Positions 3,936 through 25,861 of a stretch of 64,000 nucleotides of DNA are shown here, one piece after another (position 1 is the stretch's first letter; each line of letters starts with the position of its first letter). The position numbers were made by a program, and so were the translations under genes. Under the pieces are notes generated by a model. That model had not been told where the DNA came from and made no database searches. It was given only the letters and a program-made list of their open reading frames with translations. Source of the DNA: Phaeodactylum tricornutum CCAP 1055/1 (Eukaryota; Bacillariophyta; Bacillariophyceae; Surirellales; Neidiaceae); assembly GCF_000150955.2 (NCBI RefSeq), contig NC_011688.1, positions 1 to 64,000 on the forward strand, given 5' to 3'.

Positions 3936-4469
3936 CACGGTGATACATCTGATTGTGATACCAAGGCCTTGAAGGATACAACACAGACCAATGGGGAGTG
4001 TCAAGGTATAGTACCATGTGACATGTCTCCTAATGATGTACGTCCTCTAGACATCAACAGGGTGAACAGCAGTTGAGTGTTCACAAGGGAGAAGTGAGTT
4101 CTATGGAAGTGAACTCGGTCTTATTGCATGGAGCCCCTAGATACAATGATGTATTGTGCGTTGGAGAGAATGCAACTGAACATGTTGTGTTCTGACGGTG
4201 GCAACGGAGTGGGACTGACAATACTTATTGCCTGGCTAACGGATGTAAATGGATGCGCTCCATTTCCCGCGGTATGCATGTTATGAAAGGTATTTCCGGT
4301 TCCACTATAAGTATATGTGAGCGTGCGCCATGGTATAAGGATACTATGGAAAAGAAAAGATATCTGGTTTTGTTTGAGTTTGTTCCTCAGGTTTTGTGGT
4401 TTCTTGGCAAATCAGAGGAGCAACAAGAACTAGTTTATAGCAATAATTCTTCAATAATTGTTTTATAAG

Positions 4470-4640
4470 TTCTTTGATCCATACTGCTAGTTTACGCATA
4501 GGTCCTTGTATCCGCTGCCTAACGCAAGAGGAGCGTTGCCAAAAAGTAGAGTTTTACAGTCCCTAAGTCCCTTAGGTGTATTGCCAGTTGTTTGTAATAA
4601 TGCCCTCTCCTGTTTACCAGGCTCTAACAGCGCTTCTGTC
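4470..4640. repeat. Dispersed repeat, copy a
   Basis: The stretch with CATAGGTCCT, GAGTTTTACAGTCCCTAAG, TTAGGTGTATTGC and TGTTTACCAGGCTCT is repeated in diverged form at about 18625-18785 and in part at about 17405-17470. All copies lie close to copia remains on the same strand, so an LTR or 3'-flank origin is likely. No target duplication was found to define the ends. Confidence 0.6.
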
Positions 4641-6201: not shown

Positions 6202-9036
6202 TTACTGCAATTGGATTGGTCCATAGAGAGCATCAACAAGCGAAAGGGCGTATTTGGCCCATACTCTACCATGAAACAAATCACTCTTTACAAGCCAAGG
6301 CTTGTTCAAGCCTTGAAAGTGAACAATGCTCCACTCTCTTGTCCGGTTGTGCACATAGTCGTCTGGAGAGTCCATGAATACATTCCAAACTGAGTCAAGG
6401 TTGCCATGGGTCCCATTGCATTGCATATTCAAGGAAATTTGATCATTTCCGCCAATTGAAAAGGACCAGTACGATGCCACCTTTTCTGTGAAGTGGCTGG
6501 CGCGCAATGCATCAAGGTCTAGAAGCATCACTCCAGCATCGAATCCTGGCATGTCTTTGCTGGCTTTCTTCCACAGCTGCTGGGGAGATGTTACATTCAG
6601 GGCTGCCATCATAGATCCCACGTCTGTCTTTGCCAATAAGCTCCTGGCAACTATACCACATTCTGGCATGACCTTCCAGGTGTCCCAAATTGGTCTAAGT
6701 TGCTTTATCACCATGGCATCAACATCAATCCACAAAGTTCGCTGCACACAGGGAAGCATTTGGGGCAAGAGAAGCCGGACTTGAGAGAATGTAGGAACAT
6801 GTTTTATAGGGATGGAAGAAATGTCCACAGATGGCAGCTGTATTGGTATTGTGTAAACCTTTGCATTGGGAAACCATTGAAGCACCATCCATCGGACTAT
6901 ACATCGCTGCTTTTCATTCATTCTGTCTGTAAGGAAATAGAACACAAATGTTTCCGTAGGGTTTGACTTGTACAGTGCATGAACCCAGCTGGGGAGAACA
7001 TGCTTGGAGTCCAACCATAAAGGATTAATTGTAGTTGCAATATGAATAGCATCTTCTGTGTGCAAGTTGCCAATTGTATTCCTGCACACTTTGGTTTCAG
7101 ACGGGTACTCCCATGAAGCTGGAATTGCACCAAATTTTCGTGCCGAGTCGGTCACTTCCCCATGGCACATAGTCAAGACGCGAAGGACGTTACGTTTCTT
7201 TCGGAAAAATATTGGGTTGGGATTGGGTGGTGGATCATCCCAATTGAATAAAGCCAAGGCTGTGGACCCATTTGTAGAGTGTACAGTGTGTACAGCCTGC
7301 TGCAGACCACTGAAGCGATCACCTCCACCCCCAGGCATATCATTGTCAATGATCAAAATCACGGGCGTTCCTGTGGAAGCAGCTGGCAACGCAATGTGCA
7401 GCCGCTGGGTGATGACCAACTTGGCTTTTTGCAAGCGAACCTTCATAGCATGAGCTTCAACGTATCGTGCCACCATGTCATCTATAACATTTGGGTCTTT
7501 AAGCTTTGCTGACAGGGTCACGGCTCTTGACTTGATGTGGTCTGGTAGCAGCTGAAGACCTTCTCTATTCACGTCTACAAGCAACACTTCATCGCTTTGT
7601 TCCATCAAAGCACGTTGCTCACTCCAAGTTGGCAAAAGAGTCATTGTCATGCACGCCGTAAAAACTGAGTGGATACCGATGGACTGAAAAAAATCGTGCG
7701 TCTTTGAGTCTCGTGCTCCAATAGGCCAATTTTGGTTGAGATATCCTTTTGATCTCTTTACGTCATCTTTGTTTTTGTTATTGTTGAGATGCATTGAGAC
7801 AAAGATAGGCTCAAGCTTTTCAGGTGGCGGCCAGACCCAATTTGGAATCCCCCACCAAGCATTTAGAAACAGTGTTGTTTGTGTCAAAGCAGGTTGAGAC
7901 GGGGATTGAGGGGTGACTTCACCTGTGGCGGAAAAGTCGGCGGAGTCAATCAATTTCACCACGTCAAGCCGGTCTCTGTCCACAAAAGCGTCGAGGCGCG
8001 GAAGAAATTGCAAACCCGCCAACCCTTGCATCTCGTCGCCTTGATTCATGCTAGGGTATGCCTTTGTCCCATGTCTTCTTGCCTGGTAGCTCAGTGTTCC
8101 AAAGTGTCTCTTAGGATGATGCTCCACTGTAGACTCATTTCCTGTTCTTATTCCTATATCTTGTAGGGGTCGCTGAGCAGCAAGACAGCTACTCTGTCGT
8201 GCACACAGGATGTCCCATTGGCTTCGTACCGGCCAGTCCGATGCAACGTAATTTGGCCATTTGTACATTACTAGCATCTCCTCCATAAGAGACTTGATCA
8301 TTGCATCTTTCGGTGGCGCCGCTACTGCATAGAGACCCCCGCCAACTCCTGGCTTGACTAGGCCCATGTCAGCAGCCGTCATGAGTGTGGCGCCATCTTT
8401 AGCCGTCAGTTCGAGCATAGAGGGAAACGCCACGTTGAACCCCGGCAAGAGCACCATACCACCATATTTCCAGATCACAGTCAGCTGCATCACAACTTGA
8501 AGGGTCTGTTCAAAGTAAATTGCCGACAAGAGCTTTGCCAAGACATGATCTCCAATCCATTCTTCAAATGGTGAGTCTTCGGCCAACTGGGGGGCAATTA
8601 TGTACTGGATGCTGATACAGGATGACATCAACGTCGCCTGTGGTGGGAGTTCAAGGACAGCCTTGTGTGCTGCCGAAACACATGCGGTTGAGCCACAGTA
8701 TATAACTACTCGAATACCCGACAACCCTGATGTAAGCCCATCTATTGTGGTCTTCATGGCGTGAAACAAGGGTGGATCATTCCATGCCCAAACGAGACTA
8801 ACTGGACCACCGTTGGCTAGCGAGCGGCATTCGCCTTGGAAAGATGCTGACTTGGCCATTTGGCGTGGTGACGATAGTACCTCACTGGTAGATATGGCTG
8901 GCACCGTCACGGCCTTCTGTGCTTCCAAGCAAAAGTCGTTGTGATAGTCAAAAGCGTAGAATGAATAGAAAATGGAGAACACGGAAGCAGCAACCAAAGG
9001 AATGCCGTACAAACAAAAATTTCGTGGTCTTGGCAT
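6202..9036 (-). CDS. Golgi-type fusion: GT-like, polysaccharide pyruvyl transferase, GT8
   Basis: An intronless frame of 944 residues. I chose the ATG at 9034-9036 because it is followed at once by a type II signal anchor (about residues 8-28); the open frame upstream lacks an in-frame ATG that fits better. Residues about 78-350 resemble a degenerate sugar-binding GT domain with WKYGGMVLLPG in place of the usual WxxGGxYxDxD. Residues about 400-620 look like a polysaccharide pyruvyl transferase fold (NQNWPIGARDSKTHDFFQSI, ITQRLHIALPA). Residues about 640-944 are a GT8 glycogenin-like domain with LWIDVDAMVI (DxD), FDAGVMLLDLDALR, GNDQISLN and HFQGLNKPW. It probably builds or decorates a glycan in the Golgi. 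Donor and acceptor are unknown. It is intact although surrounded by repeats, which suggests selection. Confidence 0.8.
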   Translation of the reverse strand: MPRPRNFCLYGIPLVAASVFSIFYSFYAFDYHNDFCLEAQKAVTVPAISTSEVLSSPRQMAKSASFQGECRSLANGGPVSLVWAWNDPPLFHAMKTTIDGLTSGLSGIRVVIYCGSTACVSAAHKAVLELPPQATLMSSCISIQYIIAPQLAEDSPFEEWIGDHVLAKLLSAIYFEQTLQVVMQLTVIWKYGGMVLLPGFNVAFPSMLELTAKDGATLMTAADMGLVKPGVGGGLYAVAAPPKDAMIKSLMEEMLVMYKWPNYVASDWPVRSQWDILCARQSSCLAAQRPLQDIGIRTGNESTVEHHPKRHFGTLSYQARRHGTKAYPSMNQGDEMQGLAGLQFLPRLDAFVDRDRLDVVKLIDSADFSATGEVTPQSPSQPALTQTTLFLNAWWGIPNWVWPPPEKLEPIFVSMHLNNNKNKDDVKRSKGYLNQNWPIGARDSKTHDFFQSIGIHSVFTACMTMTLLPTWSEQRALMEQSDEVLLVDVNREGLQLLPDHIKSRAVTLSAKLKDPNVIDDMVARYVEAHAMKVRLQKAKLVITQRLHIALPAASTGTPVILIIDNDMPGGGGDRFSGLQQAVHTVHSTNGSTALALFNWDDPPPNPNPIFFRKKRNVLRVLTMCHGEVTDSARKFGAIPASWEYPSETKVCRNTIGNLHTEDAIHIATTINPLWLDSKHVLPSWVHALYKSNPTETFVFYFLTDRMNEKQRCIVRWMVLQWFPNAKVYTIPIQLPSVDISSIPIKHVPTFSQVRLLLPQMLPCVQRTLWIDVDAMVIKQLRPIWDTWKVMPECGIVARSLLAKTDVGSMMAALNVTSPQQLWKKASKDMPGFDAGVMLLDLDALRASHFTEKVASYWSFSIGGNDQISLNMQCNGTHGNLDSVWNVFMDSPDDYVHNRTREWSIVHFQGLNKPWLVKSDLFHGRVWAKYALSLVDALYGPIQLQ

Positions 9037-9590
9037 CGTGGTCAGATGTGTACAATTGTCAATTGATGAATGTTGACTGTGAATAGCCAACTCACCGAGT
9101 ACCAAGCAATTAGGCTCTGCAACACTTCGACTGATTATAACAGAAACGAGACAGTTTGACTGTAAGAAGTGAAATACAATCTGAAGAAAGCTGGAATGGC
9201 TACGCGCTCCTTGAAATTTTTTGTCCTTCATGCATGGTTTGGCTAGCATATGGCAAGCTTCACTGTCCACTGTTGCACGATCATCATTTGTAGAATTCTA
9301 ACGACTGAGGATTTCTTAAGTAAAATTGCAGTCGACTGCCCTTTGGGAACGCGGAATATTTCGCTCCGTTCGTAACGCCTAATTGCTATTGACTCTACGG
9401 TGGACTGGCCCTGGCCAAGCCAGAAGCACTTGCCTGGCATATTTATAGTTTATTTGCTAGGGGAAATATGAGAAGAGCGAATGCTGCTTTTTAGAGACCA
9501 AATATCGTTGCTTACAATAAAAGAAAATCTTTAATAGATATAGACGCTCTTGATGTAGGGTTTTTCTGTAAAAGCAAACATGTGCAGGTC
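9037..9590. promoter_or_regulatory. Upstream region of the glycosyltransferase fusion
   Basis: No gene is supported. The region holds an exact TTGACTGTGA at 9073-9082, 37 bp upstream of the chosen start codon. This is one of eight exact copies of that 10-mer in the window. An AT-rich stretch lies at about 9440-9540. Confidence 0.4.
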
Positions 9591-11310
9591 AATGATTGTC
9601 CCCGAATTTTTTCGGAAAACCCCACAGATTTGTCACATTTAATTTATTTTCCGAAGGAGGATATCAAATTGGCTTTGCAATTAGATGGTATGATTTCATA
9701 TTTGTCAGTCTGCAAGCCGTCTGCGGAGGAATCTCACCTGTGAAAAATTTGGGATCCGTATTTGACGAATTTTCCTTGTCAGGAGGAGAAGCATACCGAT
9801 GGCAAAGATGCTTTGGTATCGAGTCAATCCGGTCACGCAAACATTCAAGTAGTTTTGTTGCACTAAAGCACAGTATAAGTTGTGTTGTCTATTATTTCGA
9901 TTTCATTTGAAGAGCAACATTTTGTCGATGCACTTGAAAAGACCGGTATTGTGAGTGTTGCTCACTTGTCAAATTTCAGGTACAGAGTTACCCCAGAGGA
10001 GATGGCTAAGCATTGGAGTTTTGGTTTATCTGCTGCGAAACAAACTTTATTGGCTACACCTCAAAGAGGAATGAAGGATGTAGCCAGTTGCACCCTAGCA
10101 AAGAGAGTCAAACCAACTACCAGTCAGCTCAGATAATGTCATCTTTGTACAAGTTTGTATACAGATGCAATGTTTTCTAGTGTGACGTCTTTGCACAGAA
10201 ATACTTGTGCCTTAACAATCTCAATTGGACACGTGTTTATGCTATGAAGTCGAAGCGTGAAGCTCATGAGACATTGGATTTGTTGCTTCATTGAGAAGAT
10301 GTTCCAGCCGAGATTATCTCCAAAGGTGCAAAAGAATTGGTAAAGGGTGAATTTAGACGGAAGGTTTGTGCTGCAGGTGCTCATGCTAGACAGATTGAAC
10401 CTTACTCACCAAGGTTGAATTGAGCTGAGACTGCAATCAAAGCATTGAAAAGCATGACTAACATGGCTATGTCAAAGTCAAATGCCCCATTAAAATTATG
10501 GGATATTTGCCTGGAATTACAAAGTTTAATCCAATTGTTGATTGCCCATAATATCTACGCATTGAATGACAATGTCCCAAATACAGTTATGGGATATTTG
10601 CCTGGAATTACAAAGTTTAATCCAATTGTTGATTGCCCATAACATCTATGCATTGAATGACAATGTCCCAAATACAGCAGTGTCAGGCAATACTATGGAT
10701 ATAAGTCACTTGCGTGAATTTGCTTGGTATGATTGGGTATGGTATTTGGACCCAGTCGACTTTTTGGAGGACAAACGGAAACTTGGTCGCTGGATTGGTC
10801 CTGCGCATGATGTTGGTAATGTCATGTGTGCACGCATACTTGTCAAAACTGGTCAAATAGTATCTCAAACTTCTTACTCTCCACTGTTTACAGCTGATCT
10901 TAATCACAGGGTTGTACAATTGAAGAAATCCTTGTTTGACGGATCATTGAATCACTATAAAGATGAAAAGGCCATTTCTCCGGTGTTTCCTGAAGGGTCA
11001 AATGTGTTCAGCACTTGTTCAGACAATTGGAAAGATGAAAAGGCCATTTCTCCGGTGTTTCCTGAAGGGTCAAATGTGTTCAGCACTTGTTCAGACAATT
11101 GGATAGGGGATAAGCCGACAATGCCTCAGGCAGACAAGTTAGACCATGAAGCGTTTGATCAGTATATTAACGCCAAAGTTGCGTTACCATACTAGAACAT
11201 TGCTACCACTGGTACAGTCATTGCAAGTAAGAATGACCGTGATGGTAATGTGGTCGGGAAATCGCATCCCAATCATGTGTTGGACACAAGAGTTTTGGAA
11301 GTTGCAGAAT
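9590..11310 (+). mobile_element. Ty1/copia fossil B: integrase region and spacer
   Basis: The recognisable parts are, in order, a pre-integrase segment (about 9980-10135, RVTPEEMAKHWSFGLSAAKQ), integrase-core similarity (about 10240-10740) and the integrase C-terminal part (about 10700-10930, WYDWVWYLDP). Then comes the linker typical of diatom copia elements, ending near 11305 (NDRDGNVVGKSHPNHVLDTR). It carries two short internal tandem duplications. It is old and broken many times. No LTR was identified, and it runs directly into the next copia element. Confidence 0.8.
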
Positions 11311-13755
11311 TTTGTTTTTGGCGTGTTCAACAGTATTTTGTTGACCCCTTGTGGGCATGCAATCCTCCACAAGCATGTGGATGAATTGGATGCTCAGTTG
11401 GTTTACTGCCACCTTGTCGCCTTTTATGGTAAAGGTATTTATGCGCAGATCACAGCTACGTCCATTGAAACCAAACTCACTTTGTATTCATTTGCGACAG
11501 CAAGACCTGTGTTGCCTTTTTGAAGACTTATCGCAATTTGATTTACGATCTCGAACAGTTTAACAAGTTCCCCTTGCCGGATCACCAGAAGAGCGTACAA
11601 CTGAAGTCAGCTGTCCGTTCCCATCCGCAATTGAAACTTTACCTCAGCAATGTGCAGCTTAACTCTTGTACCCATGTGGGTAGAGTGCCAATGACTCGGA
11701 TTTGGATTATGTCTATGATTTGATGCTTGACCATGCAACCAATATTGACCAGACCAATCTGGGGGACCGCAGTAACAACCGTGGTGGCCGTTCAGCAAAC
11801 AACATGAAGTCTCAGTCTTCTTCTGAGGAGAAAACTAACAAACCAATTGGTAAGAAGCATAAGAATTATGTGCAACATGAGAAGTGGAATGCTCTCTCTC
11901 GCGAAGAGTAGCGGACCATTATGGACCAACAAGGACCTTGCCCTGCTCCAGCTCCCGCCCCTATCTTATTGGTGAACGCCGCTGCCACTCAGCCTCCTCC
12001 TACGGTATATGTAAGCAACTCAACGGCTGTTGACAACCAAAGCCTTGCTTTGATTCACATCCCGCCTGCAGCTGGACCCGGTCAACTGCTTTGTTCGCCC
12101 ATTTCAAATTCGGCTGCCCGCCAGCACTCTGCTCCGTTGAATGGCGCAACGTCCGACTCTTTTTCGGTCAATGGGACCACCTATTGCCACAAAGTGAACC
12201 GTGCTTCTGTCCAGTACCGTTTCTCCACTCACAATATTTTGTTGAATAAGGACTCTTTGATTGATGGTGGAGCCAACAGTGGCCTTAGCGGCTCCAATGT
12301 AACCGTTACTTCGCAATCCCTGTTGGAGGCAACTGTCTCTGGAATTGGAAATTTGGAACTGACCAACCTCCGTTTGTCAACGGTGGCCGGACTTGTTCAC
12401 ATGATGGATTGCCCCATTATTGGTGTGTTTCACCAGTATGCTCATCTAGGTACTGGTAATACCATTCATGCGCTCCTGGGGAGTCATGGTTGACAACATC
12501 CCTCGTACTTTTGGTGGCAAACAGCGTATTGTCATGTCCGATGGCCGTTTTGTCATCCTGCTTTCAATTTCTGGCGGACTCACATATTTGTCTATGCAGG
12601 CCCCTACCGAGGAGGACCTGGACACTTTTGAATGGGTGCCTTTTACCGCAGATAACGAATGGGACCCAAATGGTGTATCTTCTCCTGCCGCTACCAACGA
12701 TGACCTCAGTTTGCAGCTTCCTGCCGGCCATGTCCCGTTCCGTGATGAACGCATCAATAACTTTGGTCCCCTTGCGCATTCCGCGGCTGTCAGTCGATCC
12801 CCTTTGAATGCCAATGCTGTTCAACCTGATTTTGGATGGGTTCCCAGTGCTTGTATCTCTCGCATGTTTGAGAATACCACGCAATTCGCTCGTGCCGATG
12901 CCCGTTTGCCCCTGCGCAAGCACTTCAAATCGCGTTTCCCTGCTGCCAATGTATCTTGTTTGAACGAAATTGTGGCAACCGATACCTTTTTCTCGGATAC
13001 CCCTGCGGCCGATGACGGCATTTTCAACCCTGGGGGGGGGGGGGGGCTACAATGGCCCAATGTTTCGTGGGAAAAAGTTCGCAAATTACCTCTGTCTTCC
13101 CAATGAAGCGCAAATCTCAGTTTGCCCATACTTTCGAGGACTTTGTTTGTACCCATGGTGCTCCCAATGCCCTCCTCAGCGACAATGCTTGTGCTCAGAT
13201 CGGTAAGCAGGCGCTTCAAATTTTGCGAATGTATGCAATCGACAATATGCAGTGCAAGCCGCACCATCAGCACCAAAATTACCCGGAACGCCGCATTGAA
13301 GATGTGAAAAAGATGGTGAACACAATCATGGATTGTACAAACACTCCTCCGGAATATTGGTTGCTCTGCTTATTTTATGTGACCTACTTGCTCAATCACC
13401 TTGCTGTTGAAAGCTTGAATTGGCGTACCCTGCTTCAGGTTGCCCATGGACAGCGTCCTGATATTTCTGCCTTGCTCCTTTTCCGTTGGTTTGAACCCGT
13501 TTATTATTACAACCCTGACCATGCGTCTTTCCCATCGGCTTCTCGCGAGAAAACTGGTCGTTGGGTTGGTGTTGCTGAACACAAAGGTGATGCGCTGACT
13601 TATTGGATTTTGACCGAAAAAACTCACCAAGCCATTGCTTGTTCTGTTGTTTGTTCAGGCAATGTCAATACTGGTTTGAAAAAGCACCGTGCTGCAAATT
13701 ACTCTCCCGATGGAGGTGAGCCTTCGAATCCTAAGCCTATTGTCTTGGCTATGAG

Positions 13756-14628
13756 CAGGCCTCCTTAAATGCGGTATTACCGCAAATAACCGCAAATAGC
13801 TTGTTTGCGGTGAATTTCAAACCATGTTTGCGGCTTTTTGCGGTATTCCTGACCCTACAGCGATATACTTAATAAGTGTTTGTCATATCTATGTCCAGTA
13901 GTTTATAATATTTATATGAAAGGTCTCTTCACTTTGTGTTGACGGCTGTATCTTAGTTTTAATGTAGTTTTACTCCATGATGAGAGTGGAGAGAGTCCTT
14001 AAATCACTTTAGCAAGATGTCCAACAGGAAAAGTCAGCAGGATCATATCAACAGGGACCTGTCTCCCAGTTGATAATGGAGAAATTCGATTCAACAGTTG
14101 TGATTTTGGGGGAAGCAGATGTCAACCCATTTCAGAAATTCTGAACAAGCGGGCTCAGAGAGCCTGGTATTTGACCCAAGCTTCTACATCCTATTACTGT
14201 AGGTGAAACTTGTACTTGTTGGCTCGAAAAGTCGAAGAGTACTTCACATTCACTCTACACCACAACTTGTTTCCAACCAATTCTTCCCCCCCTAAGACAA
14301 TACAAAATCACCAAGCAACTCTGATGATGTAACTACGACTGGGATGACATGCAAAAACCTTCAGGCCATAACAAACACTATTGCTTGTCTAGAAAGTCAT
14401 CTTGGCATTGGTTTGCATAGTGATGGAGTCCAGAATGCAGTCAATTACCTCCTTGTAGGCAGGGTGGGGCTCGCTATCAATTGCTCGAGTTTTTTGGGTT
14501 TGTACTGATTCTACGTAAAACACAGTTAATTCGAGTTAACCTAGTACCCTTATTTGCGGTGAGCTTCAAATCTTATTTGCGGATATTTGCGGTGTTTTGG
14601 ACCAAAACACTGCATTTAAGGAGGGCTG
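13756..14628. mobile_element. Non-autonomous hAT-like transposon, 873 bp
   Basis: The element starts CAGGCCTCCTTAAATGC and ends GCATTTAAGGAGGGCTG, an inverted repeat of about 17 bp with one mismatch. It is flanked on both sides by GCTATGAG (13748-13755 and 14629-14636). An 8-bp duplication plus CAG...CTG ends is the hAT signature. Subterminal copies of TTTGCGG and its complement CCGCAAA cluster at both ends (13771-13845 and 14552-14595), as expected for transposase binding sites. No transposase frame is present, so it must have been mobilised from elsewhere. It sits inside copia fossil C. Confidence 0.85.
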
Positions 14629-14786
14629 GCTATGAGTGACCTACGCCATGATGCTACGGTCAATCCATTGTTTAAGAAATCCCCTGCATTCTCTCCTGAC
14701 GAATTATTGGCAGATATTAATTCCATGTAGCCCCTGACGGCCAGAGCCATCGAGCCCTTGTTGCTTGTAAAATTATTGATGCCGAC
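14558..14786. repeat. 229-bp segment duplicated at 22020-22248
   Basis: The segment begins in the right subterminal part of the hAT-like element. It crosses the element's end and right-hand target duplication and continues about 150 bp into copia fossil C. A same-length copy lies at 22020-22248, inside the young copia element on the other strand. I saw two base differences over 229 bp. Here it is in its native context. Confidence 0.92.
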
Positions 14787-17390
14787 TCTGACAACCATCA
14801 GGCAATCCGCTTCTTGGTGCAAATAGATGAAAAGGGTGCCAATGAGATCATTTTGTATACTGAACTCTCCGATTTGATGGAAGCCCAGCAATCCAAGCCC
14901 GCTACAAATGGAAATATTGAAGACCATTTCAAATTTACTTGTATTGTTGGACATCAAGGACCGTTGCAACCAACCTGTGCTGGCTACAAGGGATCCTCTT
15001 GGAATGTTTTGGTGCAATGGGAAGATGGTTCCCAGATGTACAAAACTCTAATTGAAACTGCTTAGGGCAATCCAGTCACACTTGCCATGTATGCTTCCGA
15101 TAACAATCTTCTTAATGTGCCCTGATGGCGCCGCTTCAATTGTCTGCTTTGCAAACGTGACAGCGTCAATTGATCCGTTTTGTTAGTGAAACAGCATGAG
15201 AGAGATCCCATTTTCAAGTTTGGTGTTCTTATACCTTGCAATTCTCGTGAAGCTCTGAAATTTGATGGCAATGTCTGGCAATACTTGTTGGGCTGATGCC
15301 ATGGCACTTGAATTGGCCCAGCACTGCAAGTATAAAACGTACAAAGACCTTGGTAAGGGCGAAGCCAAACCTGGCCCTGCATACCAGCGCATCAATGTCC
15401 ATTTTGTGTTTGATGTGAAGCAGTCATTCAAATACAAGGCCCAGCTTGTTGCTGGTGGCCACAAGACGGCGCCTCCAAAGGACAGTGTTTATTCTGGTGA
15501 TGTCTCTCTTTGGTCCATTTGTCTTGCTCTCCTTACTGGTGAGATCAATGGACTGGAAACTTGGGTTGGTGACATTGCAGTTGCCTATTTAGAGGCATAC
15601 ACGAAGGAACTGGTGTATTTTGTTGCTGGTACCAAGTTTGGGGAGCTTTATGGGCATACCCTGCTCATTGACAAGGCCTTGTATGGCCTACATTCTAGTG
15701 GAGCCCGCTTCTATGAGCGTCTTTTGGATTCCCTTTGTGCAACAAAATATTGTTCCTTGTAAAGCGGACCCCAATCTCTGGATGCGTGACTGCAATGACC
15801 ATTGGGAGTGTGTGTGTATATGTTGAAGATATTGTGTGCATCTCACAAAATCCCAAGGCCTTTTTTGATGCCCTTGTTTCAGACCATCATTACACTTTGA
15901 AAGATGTGGGTCCTCTGACTTATTTCCTTGGTGGTGACTTTGCTCACAATAGTATAGATAACACTCTCGCAGTTAGCGCAAAAATGCACATCAAACGTAT
16001 CATTTGAACTACAAGATCTCCTTTGGTACGGAGCCCAAGTTGTACTCATCCCCTCTCAAGAAGGGTGACCATCCGGAAGGCAATGCTTTGCAACTCTTTG
16101 ATTTCGGTTTGATTAAACTGCATCAGTCCCTCATTGGTACCCTCCAGCGGGCCATCACTCTTGGGCGTTTTGACATCCAGTGTGCCGTCATGACAATGCG
16201 CTTTTGTGCTGCCCGGTGGGACATTTGAACCGCGTCCACGTATTATTGGATATATTTGTCATTATCCTGATGCCACTATTCGCTTTCATACTGGGACTCC
16301 CAACCATGAGGCTTGGGGAGACATCCTTCAACACAACTGGATGTATTTGGTGTACGGTAATTTGTCTGATGAGGACTCTCCGGCAGACATGCCTCCTGCT
16401 TGTGGTAAGTCCATGCTAATTACTACCTTTGTGGACGCTAACTTGTACCATGATTTGACTATAGGCCGTTCTACAACTGGTGTCCTGCATTTGGTCAATC
16501 AGACTCCTGTGTCTTGGTTTTCTAAATAACTGTCTACCGTTGAAACGGCTACATACAGTTCTGCCTTTGTTGCTGCTCAATTGGCTACGGAGTAAATTAT
16601 TGACATGCATCTTACATTATGTATGATGGGCATTCCTTTGGATGGGCCTGCTTGGCTCCTTGGTGACAATCAGAGCATTGTTACCAGCTCCACTCTGCCT
16701 CATTTGGTTCTTTCTAAGCAACACAATGCCCTTGTATTCCACCGCGTCCGCAAGGCAATTGCTTTGGGAATCATGCATTTATTGTGGATTGAGGGTAAGG
16801 ACAATGCTAGCAATGTGTTGACCAAACCTCTCAGTCATGCAGTTGCTTGGCCTTTGATTCAGCCTTTGTTCTTTTGGAAATGTCAGACAATATCTCCTAC
16901 TCATTCTGTTTCAAGTACCTCACAGTGGGGAGTGTCAACTCCCATGTTAGTTTTGAGTACCGGTTCGCGCAATGGCGCGCACTACTTGAGTCATGACACC
17001 CAAGGCAAGCCTGTCAAAACTAATCTTGTGTGTTTGCCCACAAATCCTGACACGGATGGTTTCGGACAGGTGCAATCCCAGTTGAGTATTCAGAAACATG
17101 ATGTGACTGTTTTGGGACTCAATTGTTGCCATGCTAAGGAGCATGGTAACTATGATGAATGTGCCCACAGTGCCGTGTATAACACCGTGGAGACTAATGA
17201 AATGGACCACAATGGCGCTTGGCAGATTGTGGGGCCAAAATGGAAAGTGAACAGATTTGCTTTACTTTAGAGCTTATAAATCTTAACAACATTGTGTGAA
17301 AACCATATTTCTTAGTTTGTATCTCTTTGTTAGGAACCAGACAAGTCTTGATCACCTCATGCTGTCTTCAGAAGCCAGGAGATACTTGAC

Positions 17391-17520
17391 ATTGACAGTA
17401 TTGAAGGCTTTTCATAATACTGCCCACTTCTGTTTACCAGACTCTGTTCCTTACAGTGTTCTGTCCACACTGTGCCCTTTGGGAGACTCCATGACACAGG
17501 AGTTGCCTTTTTGAGTTTGA
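17391..17520. repeat. Dispersed repeat, copy b (partial)
   Basis: Contains CATAATACTGCCCACTTCTG, TGTTTACCAGACTCTGTTCC and TTCTGTCCACACTGTG, matching part of the copies at about 4470-4640 and 18590-18786. It lies about 120 bp after the end of the copia C coding remains, so it may belong to that element's 3' flank. Confidence 0.5.
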
Positions 17521-17684
17521 AGACTAGCCTACTCTTCAATTTGACTATCTTCAACAATCTCTGAAGGTTGCTTCTGGATATTTGATTAATGCATTGGAGG
17601 GAGGGGGGATGGTCAATTGCGGCTACATGAATTACAAAGGCACACACACGTAGTTTGTAAAAAATTGATTCTTGTCTTCAATAA

Positions 17685-17967
17685 TCTACACATACGCGGG
17701 ACCTGTTGAAATTCGAAAACATGCCATATCTATCCCACTAAACAAAAAATACACTGAATGCAATGGAAATAACAGCAAGCGAGCATTGATTATGTTACAG
17801 TACACCACCTTGCGGCATGTCCCAATGTTCTACACATATGCGTGACCTGTTGAAATTCAAAAACATGCCATATCTATCCCACTAAACAAAAAATACGCTG
17901 AATGCAATGGAAATAAAGGCAAGCAAGCATTGATTATGTTATGGTACACCACCTTGCAGCATGTCCC
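17685..17967. repeat. 144-bp tandem duplication
   Basis: The unit starting TCTACACATA (17685-17828) is followed by a second copy starting TCTACACATATGCGTGACC (17829-17967). The two differ at only a few bases. A more diverged partial relative, CTTGCAACATGTCCTGTGGA, follows at about 18105-18125. The array may therefore once have been longer. No coding potential is supported. Confidence 0.85.
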
Positions 17968-18589
17968 TTGGACAGATTTCACATAGTAAGGGAAATGTAA
18001 GTCTGAGTTGATCCGATGGACGCAGCATTTACATGTCCCATACGGAGTTTGCGTTGGCCTTATTGCGCAAATCTTTCGTATTTGAGTTAAGCTGTTGTGG
18101 TCTACCTTCTTGCAACATGTCCTGTGGAAATCATTCACTAAACATGGACATTGCAAGTGTGAATCAAAACTATGCACATGGAGTTTAGGAGGCACGTGCA
18201 GAAATGATGCCACAGCCTTATTTTGTGGCCACATGGACTCACAACAATTGAAGCATTTGTACAATTGCTATGTTTTTGGAGGCGCATGTGGTGAGTCTCT
18301 ACTTGTCAGTTTACAAGACCAAGGTGAGTTGGGATACAAGTGGATACTAAGGAGATACAACTGGAACATAAAAAGTACAACTGAGACAACATAGGGGCTA
18401 TCACAAGACACATGGTGGGATTGGACTAGATCCTCTACTCAGCATAGGTATCATGCATGGGACTTATGGTTCCAAAGGTATATATACATGTGAAAGAAAG
18501 GTTGTCTATTGAGATTATGGAAGTTGTGGAAGATCTATGATGAGCTGGCAATTTGTGGGAATGTTCACTGGACTGGACAACAGATTGAC

Positions 18590-18786
18590 TAGTTTGTAGC
18601 ATGTAATCTTCCATTCTTTGTTTTAGAAATTCTTTAATCCAAATGTTGCATAATAACATAGGTCCTCACATCTGCTGTCTAACCTGAGGGAAGCATTGTC
18701 AGCAAGTGAGTTTTACAGTCCCTAAGCTTGCTTAGGTGTATTGCAGGTTGTTTGTCATAATGCCCACCTTTGTTTACCACACACTG
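18590..18786. repeat. Dispersed repeat, copy c
   Basis: Contains TTCTTTAATCC, ACATAGGTCCTC, GAGTTTTACAGTCCCTAAG, TTAGGTGTATTGCAGG and TTTGTTTACCA, in the same order as copy a (about 4470-4640). It stops just before the end of the decayed glycosyltransferase-like gene at 18787. Confidence 0.6.
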
Positions 18787-20049
18787 TCATAACAGGAATC
18801 CATCCTTGGTTGTGCTTTGGTAGTACTCTGTAACAGATATGACAGCTTTTTTATGTTTGCTTTGGTTGAAATTTGGAACTGTATGGCTGTGAGAAGCCCA
18901 AAAGGTGCGTCTTTGCTCTTCTAAGAGCCTTAGCTCTTCTGGGGTTTTAATTGGAGGTAGCGTGACAGAATAAAAGTCAGGATATTCCTTTTCATAAAAT
19001 GATCCGCAAGGATGAGGCACTCAAATATACTTTGCTTTGTCTGATGTGAACCAGCACTTGTGCAGCATGTTGAGAAGAGATTGGTCCCATTGGTGCTTGA
19101 CAAAAGAAGGATTGTTGGGTACCAAAGATTTTTCATCTGAAATTGCATGGTAGTCTTCAGTTGCTCTCTGCCATTCTTCAATGAACTGCTTTACACGCAC
19201 AGTGGGGCGGAATATATGCACCCCGGCTTCCCATTGCGGAGATTCTAGGAGGGTCTTTGTTGGTTTCCCACAGTATGCTTCAAAAATGTCCTGTTTGCTA
19301 CAGGCACTCTCCATTCCATGACGCCACCAAGTCAAAGCCCAGTCAATTTCCGGATTCGTAATCATATAATCAATTAAATCCGCTAGAGCTGGCCACCACA
19401 CCGTTTGGTCATAGTCGCTAAAAACCAACACATCATTTGGCGACAGCTCCTTTAGAGCATCTAGTATCAAAGGCGGCTTCCAAAGCCACCAGTCACCACC
19501 AATAGAAGATTCATGTGTCGGATCTTTTAAAAACTGCGTGTGTTATTTATACGGCTCATGCTTCCGCCAATGCTTGGGTACTTCATAGTGGAATATGGCA
19601 TCGGATTCATTTCGAAGCCAGTGAAGTTTCTCAGTTGCCTCCCTTTGCCGTTTTTCAATGTTCTCTTTAAAGCCATTGTTGTGACCCATCTTTCCTGACA
19701 AATAAACAATGCGGTGGCTTTCTCAAAGGCGGAGATCACAATATCGATCCTTGCTTTCACAGTATGGCTTATTGTCGGATGACCTGGTGAGATTGGATGC
19801 AAATTGAAATCCATAAAAGACTGAATCAGGATGCACAGGATGATGTCAAGGCTTGCGGAGTAGCTGTCCGAATACTCTATTGTGAGTGTTGTCATATTGC
19901 AGGGGCTGAACGAATTTTTCGAAGCTTGTCTGATCTAGGCACTGAAACGCTCGAAAGCCTCTAAACAAAAGGATGACGCAGGAACTTCCAGCGAAGACAA
20001 GAACGGCTCTAGGACCTGTTGCGTTGCCAAGGATCCCTTTTTTAGCCAT
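18787..20049 (-). pseudogene. Decayed host glycosyltransferase-like type II membrane protein gene
   Basis: An ATG at 20047-20049 opens a frame with an N-terminal anchor (about residues 14-31: AVLVFAGSSCVILLFRGF). Coding-like sequence then continues in shifted frames: KARIDIVISAFEKA near 19760, EKLHWLRNESDAIFHYEVPK near 19600, and GGDWWLWKPPLILDALKELS near 19490. The last matches the WxWKPxxIxxAL motif of a poorly characterised glycosyltransferase family. VFSDYDQT and HIFRPTVRVKQFIEEWQ follow. An in-frame TGA at 19021-19023 interrupts a frame that clearly runs on to 18787 (PCGSFYEKEYPDFYSVTLPP). At least three frame changes plus this stop argue for a pseudogene. Introns could explain some frame changes but not the TGA. 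The young copia element lies 81 bp upstream of the start. Confidence 0.6.
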
Positions 20050-20130
20050 GGTGTGTAAATTGATTTGTATAAGCAAAGGATATCGAAATACTAGTTGTAT
20101 GATTAGTCTTGTAAGGAAATCATGTGATAG

Positions 20131-20336
20131 TATTGAAGAACACAAAACGACGATGGAGATCACAGTTGAGGAAAACGATGAACTACGAAGATTATGAGTC
20201 TACATTGTACTCTTGGATATTCGTAGGGACTGTGGGGCTGTGATTCGTTGTGTGTGGGACGGAAGCGACTTGTCTTTTAGCAGTAGGCGATTGAACTTCT
20301 GGTGAGACGTTGTCCTTACCAGGAGTTTGATCAACA
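20131..20336 (-). repeat. 3' LTR of copia element D
   Basis: It is 206 bp, from TATTGAAGAACAC to TTTGATCAACA on the plus strand. Read in the element's direction it starts TGTTGATCAAAC and ends TTCTTCAATA. The preceding GATAG matches the base pairs after the other LTR. Confidence 0.93.
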
Positions 20337-22019
20337 CACCCTCGCTGCAAATGAGAAGTTGCTATGTCATTGGTTGATGACTGTTCGAAAAGGTAGTGCG
20401 AGCGCATTTTGCGATGATGTGCGGGAGAATGATGCTTGGAGAAATAGTCGGCCAAATTCGTGAGGCCGGGTCGCCAGTAAATAATAAACTGTTTTTGCTC
20501 GACACGGTCTTTAACCCAGTAGAAACGCATGTCAATGGCTTTAGAACGTCGTTGCTTGATGGTTTCGTTGGCAATGCCGGAGGCACAAGCGTTATCGGTC
20601 TGAATAGGGGTAGGTGGCTGAATGTGGCCAAGCTCGTCGAGAGCGACCCGGAAAGCGGTGGCGTCCTTGGCGTTGTAAAAGAGGGCACCGAGTTCAGCTT
20701 CGGTGGCAGACGAAAGAACAACGGACATGATGGAGCTATGCGTGTGAATGGCGCCATTATTGGGAGGGTCCGGATCAGTCGGAGCGGGAGCAGCATTGGG
20801 ATCTTGGGGTCGACTGCTGAGGAAAAAATGACCTGCAGCACGAGAACGGGCTTTCGACTCGGAAAGGTAGGAAGCGTCAATATGAATGTGTAAACACATG
20901 TCGCTAGCCTGAAAACGTACTGTAGCGTGTGGGTGAGTGGCACAGTAGTCAAGTAAATGTTGGCGGCGTGAAGGGTCGCTTGGGTTGCAGTTGACTGTGC
21001 CGAGGCCAGAGTGCCGAGAGCCACGAGAATGGTCGAGTCGACAGCCCTAGCGTAATAAAGTAGGGTTCCGATGATTTCTTGCAGGTGGGTCTTGTCGGAT
21101 GCATTGAGAGGCTCAGTGGTATCAGGGACTGGTGTGAGTTGAGTTGTAACACCATAAGTTGGAGGGGTCCAAGGGTGAGGCGCATGTTGAGGCGTAAGAG
21201 GGGGCGATCGTTGAAAGCGGGTTAGGGCTTGGTCGATGTAGTCGGGCATGGACATGTCGAGGGTTCGACGCTCATAATCCCAAGCAAGTGTAAGTCCGAG
21301 ATAATGAGTGCTGTCCCAGTCAATGGTGATGGTGTAAAGTGCTTGGAGAGTGTCGATAAGGTGCTGAGCACGTTCAGTGCCAGTGTATTTCACTCCAAAG
21401 TCGTCCACAACTAGGGTAAACTGAATAGGGCGCGTGACGTGTCGAAATAGGCCAGCGGTATGCTTCGTCTTAACGTAGCCGTGCGCAGCAAGGTGTTCAA
21501 CAAGACAATTGTGGGCGAGAATACCGGCTTGGGGAAGGCCGTACATACCTTTGCAAATTTCGACGGTAACAGAGTTGTTGTGAATGAGTGGAGCTAACTG
21601 GTAATGAGCCATGATGGTGGGAGGGATATCGGTAACCGGGATGCGCATGTATTCGTACCAAGCCATGGGGGTGCCAAGATAGAAATCCTTGATGTCAATA
21701 CACATAAACTTGGCGGCGGGCGTGGAGAGGACGCTATTGAAGAGGATCTTGGCCGTGGTGATGTCAGCAGTTGGGGTGTTAACCTTGCCGGGGTACTGAA
21801 CTAAGTTGCCACCAACGGTAAAGCGGATGCGCTTGGGTTCCGATTTTTGAGGGCAAATGCTGGCTACAATGCGCAAGTAGGTTGCCTTGCGACCGGGAGG
21901 AATGGCATTATGCGCGATGAAGTGCATAGTCTGGCTGCCGGTGGTACTGTGGGGCGGGTTACCTTGAGTGAGTCGGCCAATTTCGTTGGCGGCGGCGCGA
22001 ATCCAATCGGGAGCGTCGG

Positions 22020-22248
22020 GGTGAGCTTCAAATCTTATTTGCGGATATTTGCGGTGTTTTGGACCAAAACACTGCATTTAAGGAGGCCTGGCTATGAGTG
22101 ACCTACGCCATGATGCTACGGTCAATCCATTGTTTAAGAAATCCCCTGCATTCTCTCCTGACGAATTATTGGCAGATATTAATTTCATGTAGCCCCTGAC
22201 GGCCAGAGCCATCGAGCCCTTGTTGCTTGTAAAATTATTGATGCCGAC
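22020..22248. mobile_element. 229-bp hAT/copia junction fragment inserted in element D
   Basis: This is a copy of 14558-14786: the right end of the hAT-like element, its GCTATGAG target duplication, and flanking copia C sequence. No short direct repeat flanks it here, so it did not arrive by simple hAT transposition. Its presence means that the hAT insertion into copia C, or into a relative of it, predates this copy. See the matching finding. Confidence 0.9.
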
Positions 22249-24168
22249 CAACCTTCAACAGCATGGGGGGCCCAGGTTTTGCAAGCAGCTGGCTTGACAT
22301 GAACTAAGACACGAGTGCCGGGAGGAGCAAGCGGGGTGCGTTTGTAGTCAAAGGCACCGTGAAGTTGTGCGTGGGCGGACAACTTGGGATTGATGCGGGA
22401 GCGACAAAGAAGATTGAGGGTAATGAGGGCCTGGGGGAGGAGGCGGTCCCAAAGATGCAGGGGGAAATCCGGGTTCGTGGTACAGAGGCCAGCAATAAAG
22501 TGATTCTTGAAGGTGCGTATGGCTCGTTCGGCGGCATTACGACGGTGCAGATGGGGGGGGGGGGGTGCCAGCTGAAAGTCGACGTGTTCCGAGGTCATGA
22601 AGGATTGGAGGGCGGTAGAGGCTTCGTTGTCGAGGCGCTGAAGTTGTGGACGCAGGCCGCGCTGGGTAAACAGAGCGTGAGCACGTTTGTAGGCGGCCAG
22701 AATCTCGGGTCCGGACTTGTTCCTCATGAGTTCGACATGGATGGCGTTGCTATTGTAATCGTAAAGAACAAGCATGTTGTTGTGGCCGGCACTGGAGGGA
22801 GTGAGGAAACGGCCCGGTTGGTCCGTGTAGATCTGACCGGTAACCCTTTGGTGGGCAACAAAGACATGGTGTGTGCATGCGACGGGGGGGGGGGGGGGGT
22901 CGGGAGGGTCAAGGTCAGGCACAGCGGCGGCAGGTGGTTCCGTCGGGATGGGGGAACCGACAGGGGGAAGCTTGGTGGAGCGAAGGTTCGCGCGTTGTTG
23001 GTCAAGGTGGCCCTTGACCATGGCGGGGGAACTAGGTGGATACTTGCGGACCTGGCGGGAGGAAAGTTCTGGAAAAGTCGCAAGATGGCCGGAGTCGAGG
23101 GCCTGGCACCATGGCCAGGGGCCTTGTTCTTGCATGTGGCGCTTGTATGGCGCCGGTTTTTGCTGGTACCATGGGTCCAGCAATAGGTCATGTCCGGCGA
23201 AGAGACAGAAGTCTGGGACACAGAGAGCGCGGAGAAGGAAGGTTGAGAGCGTCGGAGGTTGTGGCAGGAGCGAGAGAGGGGGCAGCAGCAAGCACGTTGG
23301 CATATCCAAGGGAACCGGTGGTTGCCGTGAGGCGCCGGTCTTCGTCGGCCAGGGAAAAGTGCTGCTGGAAATGGGCAAGGGTGTGAGCAGCAGTAGGCAA
23401 TTTGCGCCATTCTTTGCAGTCCAGTGGGAGCAGGCCCAAGTGCGCAATGACTTCGTAGCCTGCGCAAACAGCAGCAGCTTCCGAGATGGGGTCGTTACCG
23501 TCAACGGAGAAAGCGATGGCCTCGTCAAGCTGGAGAAAAACTGATTCAATCGGCTCGGTTGTGTTCCAAGGGGTGTACATGGACTGGAAATTTTTCTGGA
23601 GCTCGGGGGGCTTGATGGTACCGTATTTGGTCCAGAGGTGCAAGAGCAAGTCAAGGCACGTGACGTTGCTAAACTCTAACATGGGATGGGCGAGGGCGCG
23701 GACATAAATGCGGGGAACCGCGTCGAGAAGTTGCTGGCGAAGCGCGTTGTTGACGGCGACATAAAGGTTGTCGATGTCGGCGTCGCGTTGATGAATGCGG
23801 TTGTTTTCGGTGATTTGCGGTTGCGTGGCACCGGGAGGCGGATTGGCCAGAGGGGCGACGGAAATGACGAACGGGACGTCGCTGATGTCGGCGTAGGCAA
23901 GGGCGGTCAGGGTCAAGGCCATGTGGCCGTGGGCGCCACCACCATTGAGTGTGGGAATGGCGGCGGCGTTAGTCATGAGCTGGCGTTGGGCACGCTTGAT
24001 GGTCGCGTAGGTCGGTGGGACGGTGAGGGTGGCAATCGGGTCAAGGACTTTGTGAGGAAAGTCGCTCAGTTTGAAATGAGCCGAGGTCGACATCGGGACC
24101 GAAGAGGTTGCGGATGGGCGGTAGGGCAGGGTTAGGAGCGTAAAGACGGTGGGGTTGCTTCGTAGTTC

Positions 24169-24376
24169 TATTGAAGAACACAAAACGACGATGGAGATCA
24201 CAGTTGAGGAAAACGATGAACTACGAAGATTATGAGTCTACATTGTACTCTTGGATATTCGTAGGGACTGTGGGGCTGTGATTCGTTGTGTGTGGGAGAC
24301 GGAAGCGACTTGTCTTTTAGCAGTAGGCGATTGAACTTCTGGTGAGACGTTGTCCTTACCAGGAGTTTGATCAACA
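24169..24376 (-). repeat. 5' LTR of copia element D
   Basis: It is 208 bp, identical to the other LTR except for two extra bases (GTGTGGGAGACGG against GTGTGGGACGG). GATAG follows at 24377-24381. The element's own promoter would lie here, reading leftward. Confidence 0.93.
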
Positions 24377-25293
24377 GATAGATAGTACATCTTTTGTCGG
24401 AGCTTTTGAACGGATGAAAATACGGTGACCATTACTGTATACTTTGGGATTAGAAAAAATTCCATGGAAAGGTGTTTGTACTGTAGCAAACATATTGACT
24501 GTGCGTTTCATCAACATCATTCTAATCTAAAAAGTTTTATATGTGCAAAAATTTGCCCTTCACGTGAAGCTTCTGATTTTCCTATTTACTAATTGTGCTT
24601 TGATAGTCTCAGAGTTTTTCCGTTAAAAAAATGTTGGAATAGAAATTTCGCGCAAAATATTTCTTTCCATCACGGTAAAAATCGCACATGACAGGCTTTG
24701 TCATCGGGAAGGGAGATTGAAATGTGATAGTTAACATGTAAGCGTAGGATGCCATAGACACGGTCTTACTCATCAACAAGATTAAACTTCTCAATATCCT
24801 GCTGAAAATTTGAAAGAGAGTCCATATGGCACTACCGTTGCTTATTTTACAGTAGCAACTGATGTTAGTTTTGGTTGGAGAATATCATGAGTGGAGAGTA
24901 AGCGCAAGGAAATAGAAAAGAAATGTGCAACAAGAAAGTTCATGCACCCATTGTCGACTTATTTCCCTTTGATTTTGCTATTGGATTGGTATTGCTTTTG
25001 CAGATCTTGTCGCTCTCCTTCACATGTCAAAGTAGTGACCTTGTTTTATTCAACTCGATAGTAACTGCAGTTTTCGAGAAGGCCGGACAAATGCTGAGAC
25101 CATATTTCTCGTGACGTGGCAAGGAGCCGACAGTCGGACGTGACGTGATTACAGGCGTGCCGTCGATCCGTTAGAGATGCGCGGGGGAACAGTGTCTAGA
25201 GGTAAAGTGAAACATGGACTGAGAGTTTCTTTCCATCGACTGTGACAACAAAACAAGTTGCTGCTTCTTTTTTGAAATTACACTAGTATAATA
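24377..25293. promoter_or_regulatory. Transition from repeats to genes; VKOR upstream region
   Basis: No gene is supported. AT-rich stretches with short frames fill 24400-25100. A near-match to the recurrent 10-mer, TCGACTGTGA, is at 25236-25245, about 50 bp before the VKOR start codon. It probably belongs to the VKOR promoter region. Confidence 0.4.
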
Positions 25294-25861
25294 ATGCCAT
25301 CAAGATTGTTTCTATCAACCGCCGGCTTGGTCCTTTCGCTCTATGCTGTGTTCGTCGAATACAAAATGGAGAGTAAACCCGAGGAAGAAGTCTTTACCGC
25401 GTTGTGTGATATCGATGCCATCGGAGCAAGCTGCAGGTACGTTTCGCTCTTCAGCATTGTCTCAACCGCGTCATGTTCGATTGTCGGTAGCACAATATGA
25501 AGATGTATCTCACGTGTTTCGTTCATTCACGGGATTTCTCAGCACGGTATTTACTCTTCCGGTAGGACGACTGCTTTCATATTTTGGCGTCGTTCCGCAC
25601 GGTCATGTTTTAGACATACCCAACGCAGCTTTGGGCGTCATCTACTATACCTGGCATATTCTCCTGTCTGATGTTTCGCAATTGCTCACTAGCGCCATGA
25701 CGATATTGGCTTTCTTGTCTACTGTCTTTCTAGCCTATCAGTTGACTTTTATTTTACACGAGCTGTGCATTTTGTGTTGGTCGACTCATGTCATCAACAC
25801 ATGGCTCATGTATAAAATGGTTCACAGTAGCAATAGAAGCGATAAAACAAAATCGTCATAA
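25294..25861 (+). CDS. VKOR: Vitamin K epoxide reductase (VKOR) family thiol oxidoreductase
   Basis: Exons 25294-25436 and 25543-25861 give 153 residues. The 106-bp intron has GTACGT and TTTCTCAG borders. The splice restores GASCSTVF, the VKOR loop. The cysteines are as in the family: C38 and C47 in the loop, and C123/C126 as the CILC redox centre. Four hydrophobic helices fit the VKOR fold. The enzyme cycles a quinone (vitamin K or phylloquinone type) and passes electrons for disulfide formation in the ER lumen or a plastid compartment. There is no fused thioredoxin domain, unlike plant and cyanobacterial VKORs, so it resembles animal VKORC1. The N-terminus doubles as a signal anchor. Family assignment is firm; location is inferred. 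Confidence 0.88.

Follow-up and report, generated by a model that had tools for sequence, protein, structure and literature searches.

A 229-bp copy of a hAT/copia junction replaces part of a copia-like element near a chromosome end of Phaeodactylum tricornutum

Templated insertions at deletions, or filler DNA, are well known. For class 2 templated sequence insertions in humans, RNA has been proposed as the template (Onozawa and Aplan, PMC5110952); filler DNA in plants has been ascribed to synthesis-dependent strand annealing (PMC4423477); and transposon-mediated recombination has already been described in P. tricornutum (PMC2806351). Among the matches listed in literature searches on templated insertion at double-strand breaks and filler DNA in diatoms, no such event was named, which is not proof of absence. 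The patch that we describe here, in the copia-like element D, is an ordinary kind of repair scar with unusually clear ends and adds one more case to a kind already described.

The copied segment and its source

The window, that is, the whole stretch of DNA analysed, comprises the first 64 kb of contig 20 (NC_011688.1), and the genome searched comprised 27,450,724 bases in 88 contigs. Coordinates of the features are collected in Table 1. The window opens with perfect CCCTAA telomere repeats (1-279) and a subtelomeric repeat with a shift of ~165 bp and TATCCCAGAGG units (651-1262). On the minus strand, an open frame of 1031 codons (6202-9297) gave Pfam matches above cut-off to both Glyco_transf_8 and PS_pyruv_trans, bringing two sugar-modifying domains together close to the chromosome end.

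Table 1. Coordinates of the hAT-like element, the source segment, element D and its scars
Feature	Window position	Strand	Remarks
Left 8-bp target duplication of hAT-like element in copia C	13748..13755	+	GCTATGAG
hAT-like element	13756..14628	+	873 bp; terminal inverted repeats CAGGCCTCCTTAAATG / CAGCCCTCCTTAAATG
Source of copied segment	14558..14786	+	71 bp hAT end + 8 bp target duplication + 150 bp copia C
Right 8-bp target duplication of hAT-like element	14629..14636	+	GCTATGAG
Element D, copia-like LTR element	20131..24376	-	flanked by 5-bp repeat GATAG at 20126-20130 and 24377-24381
D LTR, 3' side of element	20131..20336	-	
Copied 229 bp	22020..22248	+	stands in place of ~635 bp of D; source and D family have GG in common at left end and AC at right end
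Second deletion in D	23111..23112	.	loss of ~636 bp when compared with family copies; joined without filler, overlap 1-3 bp
D LTR, 5' side of element	24169..24376	-	

Pairwise comparison within the window showed that source and copy agree at 227 of 229 bases, without gaps and in the same orientation, confirming the two differences noted in a preliminary description of this DNA. These differences (source/copy) are G/C at segment position 68 (window 14625) and C/T at position 166 (window 14723), and the longest perfect run, of 97 bases, is far above chance. When the 27.45-Mb genome was searched, the complete segment occurred, among the matches listed, at two places, both inside the window, and at least 31 further rows were partial matches: at least 8 of them, from copia copies, span segment bases 70-229, and at least 23, from hAT-like ends, fall inside bases 1-80. 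The partial matches, split in this way, show that two elements meet within the segment. The preliminary description had likewise held that it is not a natural element and that it runs from the right end of a hAT-like transposon across its target duplication into an old copia. A third copy lying within a complete transposon was looked for, and among the matches listed the whole segment occurred only in the two window copies; a defined third element as its origin was therefore rejected.

The hAT-like element has two features of the hAT superfamily, namely short terminal inverted repeats, which agree at 15 of the 16 outer bases, and an 8-bp target duplication, the two window copies of which are alike at 8/8 bases. 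In relatives for which both ends were found, the target duplications, compared by eye, were alike at 8/8 (L041), 7/8 (L059), 7/8 (L063) and 6/8 (L039) bases. L059 (252-5773; C22:428851-434372) is a 5.5-kb relative with an open frame of 944 codons and no Pfam family. No hAT transposase was found in it by Pfam among the 4 of its 10 open reading frames of at least 100 amino acids that were scanned; three of these gave no family and one gave zf-UBR, below cut-off only. The target site was uninterrupted in all eight copia relatives fetched (L031-L038), and therefore the hAT-like element entered copia C. The order of events proposed earlier, copia C, then the hAT insertion, then copying into D, is supported. 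Copia C itself gave an RVT_2 match on the plus strand, below the Pfam cut-off. Two direct repeats (4429-4619 and 18588-18779; 77% identical) bracket the region of copia C and the hAT-like element and may represent old LTRs or copies of a dispersed repeat. The old copia region also contains short tandem duplications at 10481-10677 (shift ~90 bp) and 10959-11103 (shift ~72 bp, 100% identical).

Replacement of 635 bp within element D

Element D has the LTRs and target duplication of an LTR element, and its LTRs differ from each other by no substitutions and one 2-bp gap. It gave an RVT_2 match below the Pfam cut-off and belongs to a family with many copies (a lower bound from genome matches), of which 20 other loci were fetched for comparison. 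Both flanks of the insert were present in 19 of these 20. The flanks lay 635 bp apart in 12 of the 19 and 634 bp apart in two; spacings of 602, 605, 625 and 410 bp occurred once each, and one locus, with a nested insertion, had 8,373 bp. For these measurements the alignment end was extended by eye to the junction, by 2-5 bp, in five loci. As the flanks are ~635 bp apart in the relatives, we concluded that D lost ~635 bp and that the 229 bp took its place. In the twentieth locus (L024), ~1.4 kb has been lost at the site and the two parts abut without filler.

The joints of the insert are simple. At the left joint the D family reads GTCGG-GG-CCGG and the source TTTGC-GG-TGAG, with GG in common; at the right joint the source reads GCCG-AC-TCTG and the D family T-AC-CAACC, with AC in common. 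The chance that two joints each share at least two bases is 0.024 if equal base use is assumed, so that the overlaps are suggestive, not strong, and could have arisen by chance. There was no target duplication, poly(A) or extra base at either joint. As in other templated insertions, the segment was copied from an identifiable place that stays intact, and the insert combines the absence of target duplication and poly(A) with a deletion, here of 635 bp, and short overlaps. The statement in the preliminary description that the copy had been inserted into D without a flanking duplication was thus right about the duplication and incomplete about the insertion, since 229 bp replaced ~635 bp, with 2-bp overlaps.

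The consequences for the element can be read from a relative, L012, in which SH3_retrovirus and then RVT_2 matches, both below Pfam cut-offs, lie in one open frame of 800 codons. The stretch lost from D corresponds to approximately codons 300-512 of that frame; it overlaps the end of the weak integrase-associated SH3 match (275-320) and precedes the copia reverse transcriptase match (663-780, below cut-off). The upstream reading frame of D (22185-23675) terminates within the insert, and the copied 229 bp are antisense to D. The second deletion in D (Table 1) lies 0.86 kb beyond the patched one, and its joint was spanned by none of 32 other matching places among the matches listed. The nearly equal sizes of the two losses (~636 and ~635 bp) are probably a coincidence. 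G runs of 13-16 occur inside the copia elements at 13032-13046, 22553-22565 and 22884-22899, and are possible trouble spots for replication forks or sequencing.

The insert was found in this copy of D only. Searches allowing up to three mismatches gave a single genome match, exact, to the right junction and one exact match to the left junction together with two sites of three mismatches, both outside the D copies listed; the 229 bp were absent from all 20 of the other family loci that were fetched. The preliminary description had proposed searching the D copies to decide whether the insert was spread from a parent element or arose here, and the search came out on the side of an origin here: with no exact match of either junction elsewhere in the genome, spread by retrotransposition was rejected. 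Nor was a near-identical second copy of D's flanks present in the genome, 19130-20129 having four diverged matches (71-76%) and 24377-25376 none, so that an allelic contig lacking D or its insert was rejected as well. Most copia insertions in alternative-haplotype contigs are reported to be on one haplotype (PMC8147415), and allelic variation at D is therefore likely.

The source and the copy lie 7.2-7.5 kb apart on the same strand. By rough, after-the-fact arithmetic, a random site would fall within 7.5 kb with a probability of ~15 kb / 27.45 Mb, or 5e-4, which favours an event that took place where the two copies now stand. The two differences between the copies bear on its timing. The base at 14625 is G in the source; among 12 hAT loci fetched, the right ends of eight could be aligned over it, and these show C, like the copy, in five cases, T in three and G in none. 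Three loci do not cover the base, and L043, which aligns through its left end only, also has C. The source therefore probably changed after copying, unless the template was the other homologue; the older base is probably the one in the copy, which would then not simply mirror the source as it is today. The change at 14723 is not polarised, since the eight copia relatives have C in three cases and T in five. If 4.77e-10 mutations per site arise in each generation, as published (PMC6604790), two differences over 229 bp correspond to ~9 million generations, with a 95% range of 1.1-33 million; the absence of LTR substitutions in D sets an upper bound of 19 million generations. The ages of the patch and of the LTRs agree, both estimates being loose.

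Proposed repair of a break and the alternatives to it

We propose, with a probability of roughly 0.7, that a break in D was repaired in place from nearby chromosomal DNA, leaving a deletion of 635 bp and a templated patch of 229 bp. We infer that D had integrated ~5.3 kb downstream of the source segment before the event and that its DNA then broke near 22020 and was degraded. One broken end would have paired through a few bases with 14558-14786 on the chromosome, its sister or its homologue, would have been extended by ~229 nucleotides on this DNA template and released, and would finally have been joined to the second broken end, again through a few bases; the enzymes would be those of synthesis-dependent strand annealing or of alternative end-joining, either of which could be the route to such filler DNA. 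Repair in place is favoured by the distance between the copies, the antisense orientation of the copy, the absence of element ends at its borders and its presence in this copy only, and a chromosomal template accounts jointly for deletion, patch, orientation, closeness and uniqueness. Filler copied during break repair was one of the origins named in the preliminary description, and it is the one that the replacement, too, supports. Against it, the 2-bp overlaps are by themselves weak evidence. A length of 229 bp is long for a templated insertion of the polymerase-theta type; of the traits of polymerase-theta end joining, the overlaps are present, and both the length and the distance of 7 kb are long for a process that uses short near templates. 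A scar of the same form would also be left by a replication fork that stalled in D, switched back ~7.4 kb, copied 229 nucleotides and switched forward past the 635 bp (FoSTeS/MMBIR). The location of source and copy on one strand of one chromosome, the short overlaps at both joints and the second deletion within D are all consistent with such switching, but no feature specifically needs replication, simple break repair gives the same scar, and we regard this origin as unlikely, although a single scar does not tell synthesis-dependent strand annealing apart from template switching in replication. It is slightly more doubtful that a single complex round of template switching in this subtelomeric retroelement left both the patched loss and the second loss of ~636 bp as its scars; D would in that case preserve, in a diatom, a clean natural record of repair coupled to replication.

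The locus is backed by no other contig, since its flanks have no near-identical second copy, as would be so for an artefact of assembly or cloning or for a chimera joining two haplotypes; the probably older base at 14625 in the copy, absent from the source, speaks against an artefact and is compatible with an allelic chimera, and we consider such an origin improbable. Somewhat more improbable is a patch of RNA or cDNA, in which a transcript across the hAT/copia junction would have been reverse-transcribed into the break. Reverse-transcribed RNA has been proposed as the patch in class 2 insertions (PMC5110952), and a section of that review, on the human system, is headed 'TSIs are derived from RNA', which would speak for RNA and against DNA as the template here. 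LTR elements can supply reverse transcriptase, and minus-strand read-through from D would be expected to cross the source; such a patch nevertheless requires a transcript spanning the junction, the joints are without poly(A), and nearby DNA is the simpler template. LTR elements also recombine during reverse transcription, and a template switch in that process had been among the earlier suggestions; it would have taken place in a particle of D before integration. When D was compared with its 20 relatives in six steps of 200 bp, the best-matching relative changed between steps, including on the two sides of the insert, so that D may be a mosaic, which would count for such a switch and against break repair; L011, however, was at most six identical bases below the best in every step, and a mosaic origin may not be needed. 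The copy is in the sense of copia C on the plus strand, whereas the frames of D are on the minus strand, so that the mRNA of C could not have been the template, and newly made cDNA would be expected to integrate at a random site, yet the copy lies close to its source. Orientation and closeness thus make a switch in the particle highly improbable. Least credible of all is the aberrant one-ended hAT transposition also put forward before: the segment does include one hAT end, but it starts 71 bp inside the hAT-like element and finishes 150 bp past the target duplication, so that its borders coincide with no element end and neither is a hAT end. A hAT end together with an 8-bp duplication would be expected from hAT action, whereas the new site has no such duplication and has lost 635 bp.

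Comparison with known systems

The scar in D is a well-resolved natural case of intrachromosomal copying to patch a break, in which the source, both joints and the sequence before the event are all legible. Chromosome ends rich in transposons can, as this case shows, gain composite pieces that resemble new elements but arose as repair scars, and such pieces can mislead the annotation of repeats. The locus also offers a concrete site for testing break repair in a model diatom.

Like the human class 2 insertions as they are described in the review by Onozawa and Aplan (PMC5110952), the patch was templated from another place and combines a deletion and microhomology at its joints with the lack of target duplication and poly(A). 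Unlike them, it was copied from a place on its own chromosome, ~7 kb distant, and the deletion amounts to 635 bp instead of a microdeletion; the review favours an RNA template, and the present case is known from one genome. The combination of a deletion with a copied foreign segment resembles the filler DNA reported at plant transposon excision sites (PMC4423477), although the rice fillers given there are 1-123 bp long (mean 13 bp), compared with 229 bp here, and no excised element is evident at the site. Short insertions in yeast (PMC11724301) are likewise templated and placed at the joint of a break; in contrast to those, which are described as mostly inverted duplications of 5-34 bp, the patch in D is a direct copy of 229 bp from 7 kb away.
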